From Candidatus Micrarchaeota archaeon (lineage in GTDB: Archaea; Micrarchaeota; Micrarchaeia; Micrarchaeales; Micrarchaeaceae): a stretch of 34,249 bases of DNA. The stretch lies in assembly GCA_028866575.1 (NCBI GenBank), contig JAGWHU010000010.1, forward strand, positions 1 through 34,249, in the 5' to 3' direction. Positions 8,443-28,544 of the stretch are shown piece after piece. Numbering within the stretch: the first letter of the stretch is position 1; every line of letters starts with the position of its first letter. The position numbers and the translations under genes were made by a program. Below the pieces are notes generated by a model that made no database searches, had not been told where the DNA came from, and was given only the letters and a program-made list of their open reading frames with translations.

Positions 8443-9446
8443 TGTTATACGTGCAGCAGAAAAAACCCGGATCGAAGAAGATTGAAATAAACACCCTTCC
8501 GCTATACATACTCCTTGCGGTGCTGTTCGTGCTCTTCATAGTGTTCCAGGGCAGGGGAACGCTCTCAGCGCTCTTTGGCATAGCCCTTTTCATGACGATT
8601 GTAGTGCTGATAGTCATAGAGTTCAGCGTCGGGCTCCGCGAGGACGGCCTTGCGAAGAACATCATAGAGATAATGGCCGCCGTTTTGATAGTGGTGGTGT
8701 TCTGGTTCTCGTTGAGGGCGCTACTGCACACTAGCTACCCTCTTGACGTGGTGCCGAGCTGCAGCATGCTTCCGCACCTGAAGAGGGGCGACCTCATAGT
8801 GCTGCGCGGCGTGCAGTCGCCCCAGCAGATAAAGGCTCCTGTGATAAACGTAAGCGCATCCGCATACAAAAACATGGACAGCGCGATATCCAGCGAATTC
8901 CTTTCGTGCGTTGCATACAGCATAAGCGGCAACAGGGTATATGTGTCGCAGATCGTAAAGCCCGGCTACAGCATAGGCCTCTACAGCCCTCGCAACGGCG
9001 GCGAGATAGTTCCGTATTCATCGCAGAGCGGATTCCTCGTGCAGTACACGTGCGGGGCAAAGGAGATAATGTACGGAAACGGGACTACCGCATACGAGGC
9101 ATACACAACCGCAGTAACGATCAACGGCACAACCATATACACGGATGCTAACAATTCTATAGTCGTATATGCAACGATACCGCAGGATTACTTCTACAAG
9201 CTTGGCGACAGCTACATAGTGCACAGGGCATATGCGATCATAAACGCTAGCGGGAAGTACTACGTGCTTACGAAGGGCGACAACAATCCTGGGCTTGACA
9301 TGCAGTACGGCAATTATCCGGTAAACATGACGTACGTTCAGGGCAGCGTAGTGTACTCCATACCATATCTTGGCTATCTCAAGCTTGCGTTAAGCAACAG
9401 CTTCACTGAGCCTGCGGGATGCAACTCCACTGTGATAAACAGCTAA
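8442..9446 (+). CDS. Signal peptidase I-like (S26) membrane protease with extra N-terminal helices and a long insertion
   Basis: This 334-residue protein has three hydrophobic segments (about 19-36, 41-60 and 74-95) followed by an extracytoplasmic catalytic region. The Ser box is VVPSCSMLPHLKRGDLIVL with the likely nucleophile Ser108. The archaeal-type His box is IVHRAYAI (His261), and the Asp box is KGDNNPGLD (Asp280). Archaeal S26 enzymes use a Ser-His-Asp arrangement and are usually 150-230 residues, so the ~150 residues between Ser and His are an unusual insertion. The role would be removing signal peptides from secreted proteins, several of which are encoded nearby. GTG 8442 overlaps the smc stop by one base. 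The 3' end shares a 4-bp stop overlap with the minus-strand LamG gene. Confidence 0.75.
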   Translation: MLYVQQKKPGSKKIEINTLPLYILLAVLFVLFIVFQGRGTLSALFGIALFMTIVVLIVIEFSVGLREDGLAKNIIEIMAAVLIVVVFWFSLRALLHTSYPLDVVPSCSMLPHLKRGDLIVLRGVQSPQQIKAPVINVSASAYKNMDSAISSEFLSCVAYSISGNRVYVSQIVKPGYSIGLYSPRNGGEIVPYSSQSGFLVQYTCGAKEIMYGNGTTAYEAYTTAVTINGTTIYTDANNSIVVYATIPQDYFYKLGDSYIVHRAYAIINASGKYYVLTKGDNNPGLDMQYGNYPVNMTYVQGSVVYSIPYLGYLKLALSNSFTEPAGCNSTVINS

Positions 9447-10300
9447 TGGGAGTACGCCTTGGTCCATGCAGATGAGAATACCACCGTATTGGAAGCGCCG
9501 TTGTTGCCGTTTCCGCTGTAGTCCACCATGTCGCTGTTCAGCGGCCACCACCCGACAAGGTGCTGCAGGTCTATCGGCGGCGCACCTATGCCCTTTATGT
9601 ACTCATGGAGTATCTGGTTCGAGTTGAGCGATGAGTTGTATATCTGCACGTTCGATATGCCCCCTGCAAACCAGTTGCCCTGGCCGGCCCCTATCGTCAG
9701 GTTGTTGCCATTAGTCACTATGTTGCCAGACTGCGGGACCGTTCCCGCAAGATACCCGTCCACGTATATGCTCATCGCGTAGCCGTTATATGTAGCGGCC
9801 ACGTAGTGCCAGCTGTTCTTCCCGTTATAGTTCTCGCTGAGCGATACCCAAGACCCTCCTATGTAGAGGTCCATCGCTATATTGGACCAGCCGCTGGTCG
9901 TAGCTGGGAAAACATATCCTGTGTTGGTTGTTGCCGTGGCCTTTGAGACCGCATCCTGGTCTGTTCCGGACCCGTTCGCGTATATCCATGCGGTTACAGT
10001 GAGCTGGTTGGACAAATCAAGATACCCGGAATCCGGTACTGAAACCTTGCTGCTCCCACCGTTGAAGAAAGCTACGGATTTGGGTATCTCCGAGCTGCAG
10101 ACCCCCTGTAGGTCTATGAGCTGTATGGTGCCTGCGCCATACGGCCTGTAAACCTGGCATGCACCGGGCTCTGCCCTTGATATGGAATTGCCGGAATTGA
10201 ATGCCCCTATGGCATACAGCGCGGCGATCGCAACGCCTATTATGATGAATGCCCATGCGTAGTTTACGAGATATTCAATGGAGCCTTGAGAGTTTGGCAT
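9443..10300 (-). CDS. Surface protein: class III (pilin-type) signal peptide plus LamG/concanavalin-like domain
   Basis: In this 285-residue protein the N-terminus MPNSQGSIEYLVNYAWAF, followed by a hydrophobic helix, fits the archaeal class III signal motif (Q-x-S-x-E at residues 5-9), which is processed by a prepilin-peptidase-like enzyme and leads to assembly in pilus-like structures. The rest is a LamG/concanavalin A-like beta-sandwich: WIYANGSG, then NSWHYVAATYNGYAMSIYVD, GGISNVQIYN and VGWWPLN. Such domains bind carbohydrate or protein ligands. It is therefore probably a surface adhesin or pilus-tip lectin. It is transcribed toward the signal peptidase gene and overlaps it by 4 bp. A TATA box lies at 10349-10357 on the minus strand. 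Confidence 0.8.
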   Translation of the reverse strand: MPNSQGSIEYLVNYAWAFIIIGVAIAALYAIGAFNSGNSISRAEPGACQVYRPYGAGTIQLIDLQGVCSSEIPKSVAFFNGGSSKVSVPDSGYLDLSNQLTVTAWIYANGSGTDQDAVSKATATTNTGYVFPATTSGWSNIAMDLYIGGSWVSLSENYNGKNSWHYVAATYNGYAMSIYVDGYLAGTVPQSGNIVTNGNNLTIGAGQGNWFAGGISNVQIYNSSLNSNQILHEYIKGIGAPPIDLQHLVGWWPLNSDMVDYSGNGNNGASNTVVFSSAWTKAYSH

Positions 10301-26474: not shown

Positions 26475-27587
26475 CTATTTGGACAGCCCCCTAAGGAAGA
26501 ACCTCTTCAGCATGAGGCTCGGCCTGTCCATGTCGCCGTACTTGCTGAAGAATTCCTCGGCGCCCATTATCTTGAGGAACTTGAAGAAAGCCTCGAAGTT
26601 CGTGACCCTGAGGTTGGAATAGTAGTTGTGAAGGAATTTGTGCATCCTCAAATCAAGACCGTACCTCTTCCTCCACTCCTTGTCGTAAACGCTTAGCTTC
26701 GTGCCGGTCCTTATGTTGCTGTCTATGGTCTTTGCAAGTATCTTCGCGCTGGAGCACCCGAATATGATGCCCCCTCCTGTTGTTGCCTTCACCTGCCCTG
26801 CGGCGTCCCCTACAAGCACGACGTTGCCCTTTACCGTGGAGGACCTGCTTGTCAACGGTATTATGCTTGCGTATCCGTTGATCTTATCGGATCCCTCCAG
26901 CGAACTCCCGAGCATTCCGCTCTTCACGAACCTGGAGAATGCCGAGACGCTGTTTATCTTTGCCCTGTCGCTTATGCCTATGCCTATCTCGATCTTGTCC
27001 TTTGAATAAGGGCATGTCCAGCCGAAGAACCTGTATGCTATCTCGTTGGAGAAGAAGAGGCCCACCATGTTGCTGTCGTCTATCGTAGGGTTTGCATACT
27101 CGGCCTTGTACGTCAGTATGTATTCCTTTATTTCGGGGAATTTGAACGCAGATGCGACAGTTGATACCGCTCCGTCTGCCCCAACTATTATGTTTTTATC
27201 GTCGTCTGCAAGCTCATGAAGCTCGTTTCTCGTGAACTTCCTGCCAAGGTGCACCTTTGCCCCGGCCTTTTCGGCAGATTTCCTGCATATCTCCGCAAGC
27301 TCGCCCCTGTCCACGACGTAAGCCATTGTCCTGCCTGCATTTATCCTAAGTTGCTCCCTCCCTGCGTGGAGCGTGGCCCCGCTAAGCGTGTTGATTACAG
27401 CATGCTGCGGGTTGATCCCTATCCTTTCGAGGCCGTTCACGGAGAATATTCCCGAAGCCTTGGAGGAGCTGTCAGCAACCGAATTCTTCGAATCATACAC
27501 GTGGGTTCCTATTCCGTATAACGCGAGCTCCTTTGCCAGGGTGAGCCCTACAACCCCTGCGCCTATTATAGTTACTTCCCTGTCCAT
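26475..27587 (-). CDS. Geranylgeranyl reductase-family FAD-dependent oxidoreductase
   Basis: This 370-residue flavoprotein has an N-terminal Rossmann motif (VTIIGAGVVGLTLAKELALYG), the middle NIIVGADGAVSTVA motif of the PHBH/GGR superfamily, and the second FAD motif GNVVLVGDAAGQVKATTGGG, followed by a family-like C-terminus (YDKEWRKRYGLDLRMHKFLH). It probably reduces isoprenoid double bonds in lipids or quinones. It is a paralogue of the protein at 1473-2912, but shorter and closer to the classic GGR layout. ATG 27587 fits a leaderless transcript from the TATA element near 27616. It is divergent from the TBP gene. Confidence 0.8.
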   Translation of the reverse strand: MDREVTIIGAGVVGLTLAKELALYGIGTHVYDSKNSVADSSSKASGIFSVNGLERIGINPQHAVINTLSGATLHAGREQLRINAGRTMAYVVDRGELAEICRKSAEKAGAKVHLGRKFTRNELHELADDDKNIIVGADGAVSTVASAFKFPEIKEYILTYKAEYANPTIDDSNMVGLFFSNEIAYRFFGWTCPYSKDKIEIGIGISDRAKINSVSAFSRFVKSGMLGSSLEGSDKINGYASIIPLTSRSSTVKGNVVLVGDAAGQVKATTGGGIIFGCSSAKILAKTIDSNIRTGTKLSVYDKEWRKRYGLDLRMHKFLHNYYSNLRVTNFEAFFKFLKIMGAEEFFSKYGDMDRPSLMLKRFFLRGLSK

Positions 27588-27612: not shown

Positions 27613-27620
27613 TATATAAA
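27613..27620. promoter_or_regulatory. TATA element between the divergent TBP and flavoprotein genes
   Basis: TATATAAA lies 23 bases from TBP ATG 27639 on one side and 29 bases from flavoprotein ATG 27587 on the other, so one element could serve leaderless transcripts in both directions. A second element, ATATAAAT at 27628-27635, would suit the alternative TBP start at ATG 27654. Confidence 0.5.
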
Positions 27621-27638
27621 GCTTTCCATATAAATATT

Positions 27639-27995
27639 ATGTGTATCACGGTGATGGTAACGGCTGCTAAAAACGCAAAAACGCATAAGGTTACAGGGCC
27701 AATAAAATCGCCTCCAATCAAAATACAAAACATAGTCGTAAGTGCCGATTTACACGCAACTATAGATCTGTACGCGCTCTCAAAGGAGGTGAAGGCCGTT
27801 GACTACGAGCCTGAGCAGTTTCCCGGGGCCATATTCAGGATACAGGAGCCGAAGGCAGTGATAATACTGTTCAAGAACGGAAAGATGATATGCACAGGGA
27901 CGAGCACAGAGGCAAACATAAAAAAGGTGCTTGAATATGCATCCAAGGTAATCTCCAAGTACGTCATATCCCTAAATTCTGATAAAAAGGAATAA
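27639..27995 (+). CDS. tbp: TATA-binding protein with a single TBP repeat
   Basis: This 118-residue protein has a conserved TBP repeat at about residues 27-108: IKIQNIVVSADLHATIDL, then DYEPEQFPGAIFRIQEPKA and ILFKNGKMICTGTS, then a helix. Both DNA-kinking Phe positions of the stirrup are present (Phe61, Phe78). Normal archaeal TBPs have two such repeats in ~180-200 residues. Here the second is missing: the TAA at 27993 is followed by an unrelated gene and no frame nearby encodes another repeat. A working protein would have to be a homodimer or pair with a half encoded elsewhere. ATG 27654 is an alternative start. I am sure of the family; general TBP function is inference. Confidence 0.88.
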   Translation: MCITVMVTAAKNAKTHKVTGPIKSPPIKIQNIVVSADLHATIDLYALSKEVKAVDYEPEQFPGAIFRIQEPKAVIILFKNGKMICTGTSTEANIKKVLEYASKVISKYVISLNSDKKE

Positions 27996-28025
27996 TCATT
28001 TTTGCGCTACAGGACGGGTGATATA

Positions 28026-28544
28026 ATGGTTACTGTAGTAAGGGACAAATCCTACGATTTAAAAAAGAAGGCGCTCGCATGCGATGACGCCGCTTTAGTC
28101 GCAAGGCTGGAGGCTGCAAGCAAGGCGAGGGAAAAGATAACCATATCGCTATTGACCTTGCGCGGCAAAGAGAAATCGATAGACGGGACGCTCCTTGGCG
28201 TAAACGCAAAGACTAACACGGTGAGGATAAGGAACAGCGAGGATTTTGATCTGGATCTGAGGTTCACAGGCATGGGCAAGGACATAGTAAGGATAACAAC
28301 TCTGGAGGGCAATGTGCTCTACGAGAACATCTCAAAACCCGTGGGGCTGAAACACATGCTGAGAAGCGGAGACACCCAGAACGACAAAACGCCTGAAAGA
28401 AAGGCGCGTGTTGAGGGCAGAAGTGAAAAGGAATCCTGCAACAATATTCAAGCCGATTCGGGTCGCACGATGTCATGGAATGCCTTCAGGGAGGAGGAGC
28501 TTGAAAACCACGGCGAAGAAAGGAAGACCGTCCATTTTCTATGA
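28026..28544 (+). CDS. Hypothetical protein downstream of TBP, 172 aa
   Basis: The first ~110 residues hold a helix (DDAALVARLEAASKAREK) and a beta-rich part (ITISLLTLRGKEKSIDGTLL, NAKTNTVRIRNSEDFDLDLR, IVRITTLEGNVLYEN) that could be an SH3/Sm-like small barrel; I cannot name the family. The last ~55 residues are charged and low in hydrophobics, probably disordered. ATG 28026 is chosen because GGTGAT lies about four bases upstream; an in-frame start at 28002 would precede that site. It follows TBP by 30 bases and is probably co-transcribed with it. The 3' end overlaps the minus-strand glycosyltransferase by 6 bp. Confidence 0.6.
   Translation: MVTVVRDKSYDLKKKALACDDAALVARLEAASKAREKITISLLTLRGKEKSIDGTLLGVNAKTNTVRIRNSEDFDLDLRFTGMGKDIVRITTLEGNVLYENISKPVGLKHMLRSGDTQNDKTPERKARVEGRSEKESCNNIQADSGRTMSWNAFREEELENHGEERKTVHFL

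Follow-up and report, generated by a model that had tools for sequence, protein, structure and literature searches.

Single-lobe TATA-binding proteins as the apparent sole TBPs of a micrarchaeon and many of its relatives

Known TBPs and single-lobe TBP domains

The TATA-binding protein (TBP), universal in promoter recognition, is, as far as we know, held to be two-lobed in all archaea and eukaryotes. That it arose from a dimer of one-lobe proteins is a textbook inference of which we know no living example. The archaeal two-lobe TBPs of Sulfolobus acidocaldarius (1mp9), Pyrococcus woesei (1pcz/1ais) and M. jannaschii (2z8u) belong to the same Pfam family as the half-TBPs described here and share with them the lobe fold, the DNA-contact residues and the TFB-contact residues. 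A canonical TBP, however, has two unlike lobes per chain with the TFB-contacting Glu pair mostly on the C lobe, whereas the half-TBPs have one lobe per chain and carry the Glu pair on nearly every lobe.

Closer in architecture are the monopartite archaeal TBP-domain proteins, in which, as in the half-TBPs, the whole protein is one TBP domain. Those described by Brindefalk et al. in 2013 reportedly consist of a single TBP domain in some archaea and are not known to be the only TBP there. The half-TBPs differ from such proteins in three respects: i) whole genomes have no TBP besides them; ii) they include the paralogues A and B; and iii) they have re-fused relatives. A single TBP-like lobe is also present in the N domain of RNase HIII and in some DNA glycosylases, but there it is part of an enzyme, whereas the half-TBP is free-standing and has the TFB-docking residues; the sequence match between half-TBP A and RNase HIII was weak (E 0.3). 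The poxviral TBP-like factors VETF-l and VITF-3l are basal initiation factors that likewise deviate from the standard two-lobe form (PMC12917281), but these are extended or tripartite viral proteins (PMC12917281), while the half-TBP is cellular, minimal and one-lobed.

The methods of a later study record single-lobe TBP versions in archaea and describe this as agreeing with Brindefalk et al. 2013 (PMC7221094). In the open-access full-text literature, no prior report was found of halves as a lineage's only TBP, of an A/B split or of a re-fusion. Single-lobe archaeal TBPs are therefore already known, and what seems to be new is the putative role as sole TBP, the A/B split and the re-fusion.

Half-TBP A: gene, product and locus

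The gene for half-TBP A is located at 27639..27995 on the forward strand of the window (the whole stretch of 34,249 nucleotides that was analysed, equal to contig C10 of a micrarchaeal genome of 1,127,809 bp in 53 contigs, 97.5% complete). It encodes a single-lobe TATA-binding protein of 118 aa, an assignment based on translation, PF00352, an AlphaFold2 model and 80 homologues. PF00352 matched the protein once, from position 2 to position 85 of its 85-position profile (E 2.2e-25; score 88.7 bits, cut-off 22.9), which defines a TBP-lobe domain at residues 27-108 (27717..27962, + strand). The stirrup YEPEQFPG (27804..27827, + strand) holds the Glu pair E57 and E59 and, in QFPG, the first intercalating phenylalanine, F61; the second, F78 (27870..27872, + strand), lies within LFKNGK and is invariant in all lobe sets examined. 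F61, F78 and the minor-groove residues N31 and V33 are all four invariant. Thus the claim of an earlier, sequence-only reading that this protein has one repeat with both intercalating phenylalanines agrees with the single PF00352 match and the presence of F61 and F78.

Half-TBP A lacks the two lobes per polypeptide of a TBP: its single lobe is followed by a genuine stop codon (27993-27995), and there is no other lobe within or beside the gene. No second TBP repeat was detected nearby, either by PF00352 in a genome-wide search at E<=10 or downstream in any frame, and the following ORF (start at 28002 or 28026) had no Pfam match, so that the earlier statements that no second repeat is close and that the next gene is unrelated were both upheld. 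Pfam revealed no further domain in the 118 aa, hence no nuclease or glycosylase fusion. The ORF at 28026-28541, 3' of half-TBP A, had no tblastn match (E<=1e-5) in the corresponding loci of the 80 relatives, where the flanking genes are kept. Elsewhere in the window, two flavoproteins of the geranylgeranyl-reductase/FAD_binding_3 type were noted (1473-2912, recognised by eye, and 26475-27587, by Pfam match), and the gene at 9443-10300 on the reverse strand appears by eye to encode a protein with a short, hydrophobic, pilin-like stretch at its N terminus and, after it, what resembles a LamG-type domain.

When the half-TBP A sequence was compared with the PDB, its relatives were canonical TBPs, each of which was matched twice, once per lobe. 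The AlphaFold2 model (39 homologues as input) had a mean pLDDT of 77, and its top 44 matches in the PDB were all TBP chains; superposition on single TBP lobes of several entries gave a TMq of 0.68 and an rmsd of 0.9-1.1 A over 84-85 columns. The product of the gene is thus predicted by this model to fold as one TBP lobe.

Upstream of the gene, a TATA-box-like element, TATATAAA, was read from the sequence at 27613..27620 (+ strand), ~22-26 bp before the start codon of half-TBP A, and is a putative promoter element of the gene itself. Motif searches found a TTTATATA-like motif enriched upstream of genes in the same genome and an AA-G-TTTAAATA-like, BRE-TATA-like motif in the relative G002, which has one half only, each above shuffled controls. 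Positional logos built from start codons showed no fixed-spacing promoter signal besides a GGTG-like ribosome-binding site. TATA/BRE elements of this kind are usual in archaea and do not decide whether TBP is symmetric.

Eighty named Micrarchaeota contigs from independent assemblies carry a homologue of half-TBP A, with 68-91% identity over the best segment; nearly all are labelled Candidatus Micrarchaeota, and some Micrarchaeaceae, Mancarchaeum or Micrarchaeum A_DKE. The alignment of homologues proposed in the sequence-only reading yielded a single lobe in all 80. A geranylgeranyl-reductase-like gene lies upstream in 54 of the 80 and a glycosyltransferase gene downstream in 67, with SRP54 further downstream wherever the homologous locus extends that far. 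That reading had also named a frameshift or an assembly break as what would turn the gene into an artefact, i.e., a normal TBP halved by sequencing or assembly. We rejected this explanation, which is hardly conceivable given that separate assemblies show the same half gene beside the same neighbours, that single-contig relatives carry it, and that the ORFs of half-TBP A and of its paralogue B (below) are both in mid-contig, without a second lobe downstream in any frame.

TBP and TFB content of Micrarchaeota genomes

The genome that contains the window had exactly two PF00352 matches at E<=10: half-TBP A on C10 and half-TBP B on the 113-kb contig C4, where the lobe (C4:85976-86218) lies in mid-contig in a separate ORF of 111 aa with one lobe. 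The genome-wide search for another TBP, or another half, that had been proposed from the sequence thus returned one further half and, at E<=10 in this 97.5%-complete assembly, no two-lobe TBP; because such a TBP is absent from the matches, A and B are taken as the TBP pair of the genome. The two halves are 52% identical over 85 columns. TFB is encoded once in this genome, and the gene holds its two cyclin repeats within one open frame.

Among 46 genomes of its own family (f1), each at least 85% complete, exactly two half-TBP matches were found in 40, far apart and each in its own ORF; among these 40 is G055, a single 989,838-bp contig and presumably the closed chromosome of Ca. Micrarchaeum A_DKE (NZ_CP060530.1). 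Of the 45 f1 genomes that gave a match, 44 had no two-lobe TBP. In the remaining one, G067, a Micrarchaeaceae MAG with two halves, a canonical two-lobe TBP with Sulfolobus-like lobes is encoded at G067:C43:2733-3251 (L003); this TBP probably derives from a different, contaminating archaeon.

Twelve genomes of the sister family f2, including G002 (97% complete; in 3 contigs) and G019 (one contig of 771,545 bp), yielded a single match even with the cut-off at E<=10; other f2 genomes had two halves, the second being A-type. With 13 genomes of other families, one-half genomes total 25; one half is the content of families f8, f9, f10, f13, f15, f17, f19, f22 and f25 and of part of f11. On the other hand, two lobes within one ORF (~190-260 aa) were found in f3, f4, f5, f6, f7, f12, f16, f18, f20, f23 and f26. 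Another f11 genome, G053, has three half-TBPs, all on one contig, two of which (G053:C1:448260 and 893905) are ~446 kb apart and identical over the aligned lobe, suggesting recent duplication or conversion. Extra, strongly diverged single TBP domains without the FPG stirrup (E ~1e-10) were seen at G140:C12:19300-19539 (L325) and G075:C3:8789-9031 (L200); their proteins may be accessory ones of the monopartite type.

Nearly all Micrarchaeota genomes examined encode a TFB with both cyclin repeats, usually as the only TFB, which implies that a TBP is needed. Two f2 genomes of genus g33, G033 and G049 (both at least 90% complete), have a half-TBP and no TFB match at E<=1e-3, which suggests that their TFB is missing or strongly diverged. 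In a separate observation, the TFIIB profile matched the first TFB cyclin repeat from position 11 in f1 and f2 (e.g., G000:C1:173396-173632) and from positions 2-4 in other families; the start of this repeat thus seems to have changed in the order having A and B halves.

Could the halves be accessory monopartite TBP-domain proteins, the true TBP having been missed through an assembly gap or extreme divergence? The earlier single-lobe archaeal TBP proteins were not called sole TBP (PMC7221094), and the genome studied here is split into 53 contigs. However, closed and single-contig relatives have the same content, the halves hold all functional TBP residues, and no further match appeared at E<=10; a canonical TBP hidden elsewhere was rejected on the last ground, and this explanation as a whole we consider very improbable.

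Docking residues, fused TBPs and the order of events

The stirrup glutamates C.L3.2 and C.L3.4 of the C lobe contact TFB/TFIIB (PMC7221094). E57 and E59 of half-TBP A correspond to human E284/E286; across all Micrarchaeota lobes E57 is invariant and E59 is 98-100% conserved. The Glu pair was present in 99/101 A halves, 65/65 B halves, 39/39 other halves and both lobes of 27/27 fused Micrarchaeota TBPs, while the EPE motif occurred in one of seven canonical N lobes. Moreover, the DNA-contact Asn, Val and Phe are retained in essentially all halves.

In the fused Micrarchaeota TBPs the N and C lobes are 51-82% identical, as compared with 42-55% in four canonical archaeal TBPs. In a lobe tree, built on alignments of only 88 columns, a branch supported at 99/98 set every one of the 74 Micrarchaeota lobes (from halves and from both ends of fused TBPs) apart from the 14 canonical lobes, and constraints that grouped fused-N with canonical-N lobes (p-AU 0.024) or fused-C with canonical-C lobes (p-AU 0.011) were rejected. 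Fission of a canonical TBP into an N-half gene and a C-half gene was also considered and found unsupported, as A and B fall together on the Micrarchaeota side of this tree, away from the canonical N and C lobes with which such halves would be expected to group. The lobe tree, the shared Glu pair and the high lobe identity together make the fused TBP resemble two joined halves; on this sequence evidence, the fused Micrarchaeota TBPs look like two half copies joined, unlike canonical TBP. Being in effect covalent dimers of halves, they provide a gene-fusion argument for pairing. Gene conversion between the lobes could be an alternative cause of their likeness.

The order of events was read from trees of other proteins. 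In an EF-2 tree with three PDB outgroups as root, genomes with fused TBPs were nested among those with halves (98), and EF-2 alone did not reject the halves as one clade (p-AU 0.245). In an EF-2+SRP54 tree (1165 columns, 30 genomes), rooted with three distant outgroup rows, each joining EF-2 and SRP54 of different species, the fused clade (100/98) was nested and derived, its sister (99/99) being a one-half genome of f21, and a single clade of all halves was rejected (p-AU 0.019). We also weighed the reverse order, in which the ancestor of Micrarchaeota had a normal two-lobe TBP, its lobes were homogenised by gene conversion and the halves arose by later loss of a lobe. Such a course would fit the EF-2 result, which permits one origin of the half form, and the f23 TBPs, whose fused N and C lobes are each other's nearest, as conversion would give; the combined tree, by rejecting the halves as one clade and by nesting the fused clade among them beside a one-half sister, argues against it, and we regard it as rather unlikely. 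The best reading of the trees is that the half form is the older state within the sampled phylum and the two-lobe form is derived. Since A-type halves occur in f2, the A/B split predates the f1/f2 split, and the f2 genomes with one half have probably lost A.

The sequence-only reading had left the choice between a secondary loss and an ancestral form. The trees answer this in part: within Micrarchaeota the half is basal and the two-lobe form derived. The source of the first half fits several origins: the N lobes and the C lobes of canonical TBPs and the Micrarchaeota lobes can each be one clade in the lobe tree, a plain trifurcation is compatible with it, and so, equally, is derivation of the first half from the canonical N lobe, from the C lobe or from a pre-duplication stage. 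That the Micrarchaeota half-TBP descends directly from the one-lobe, pre-duplication TBP, the fused TBPs being an independent second invention, is a long shot; if true, transcription in the cells with half-TBPs would still be run on the ancestral symmetric dimer.

Proposed working form and its meaning

A TBP saddle takes two lobes; where each chain has just one and the genome holds no further TBP, the chains would have to pair. We propose, with considerable confidence, that Micrarchaeota with halves use an obligately dimeric TBP, which would be a homodimer in one-half species and probably an A:B heterodimer in the micrarchaeon studied here, and that a later re-fusion took place in one branch. 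In this organism the two half genes, A and B, would jointly replace the normal two-lobe TBP, and their lobes would pair edge to edge into a saddle able to bind the TATA box and bend it. Judging from the co-occurrence of the genes, the most likely working form is A:B, with A:A and B:B also possible; in one-half relatives the saddle would have to be a homodimer. The earlier suggestion of a homodimer or a heterodimer accords with both kinds of genome, the second half here fitting a heterodimer and the 25 one-half relatives a homodimer, the pairing itself being deduced.

A possible, if doubtful, division of labour is that two homodimers operate side by side, B:B as the general TBP and A:A as a specialised TBP for some promoters, comparable to the multiple TBPs of haloarchaea. 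B:B apparently suffices in the one-half f2 species, which retain the B-type only, and half-TBP A has a longer branch and its own fixed residues, H39, V34, I76 and S48. A and B, however, are kept together in 40 of the 46 f1 genomes despite their small size, share identical TFB and DNA contacts, and usually face one TFB. The A-specific residues lie, according to the model, in or near the first strand, the first helix and the fourth strand, where they would suit a partner-specific contact.

On the A:B dimer that we prefer, one two-cyclin TFB would dock on a stirrup, and either end could accept it. Because every half carries docking glutamates of the C-lobe type, it would mainly be TFB, through its reading of the BRE, that sets promoter direction; in A:B species the differences between A and B perhaps also contribute. 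As for evolution, the proposed steps are that i) an older one-lobe TBP was duplicated into A and B before the f1/f2 split; ii) A was lost in part of f2; and iii) in another part of the phylum, head-to-tail linkage of two lobes gave a new two-lobe TBP.

Micrarchaeota, a phylum of very small archaea, would thus offer a series of apparently sole one-lobe TBPs, comprising single-half species (symmetric if a saddle forms), species with diverged A and B, and species with fused, near-identical lobes. Such a series makes testable how TBP became two-lobed, and whether the asymmetry of TBP is needed for orienting the pre-initiation complex. The re-fusion in one branch of the phylum appears to replay the step that is thought to have made TBP.
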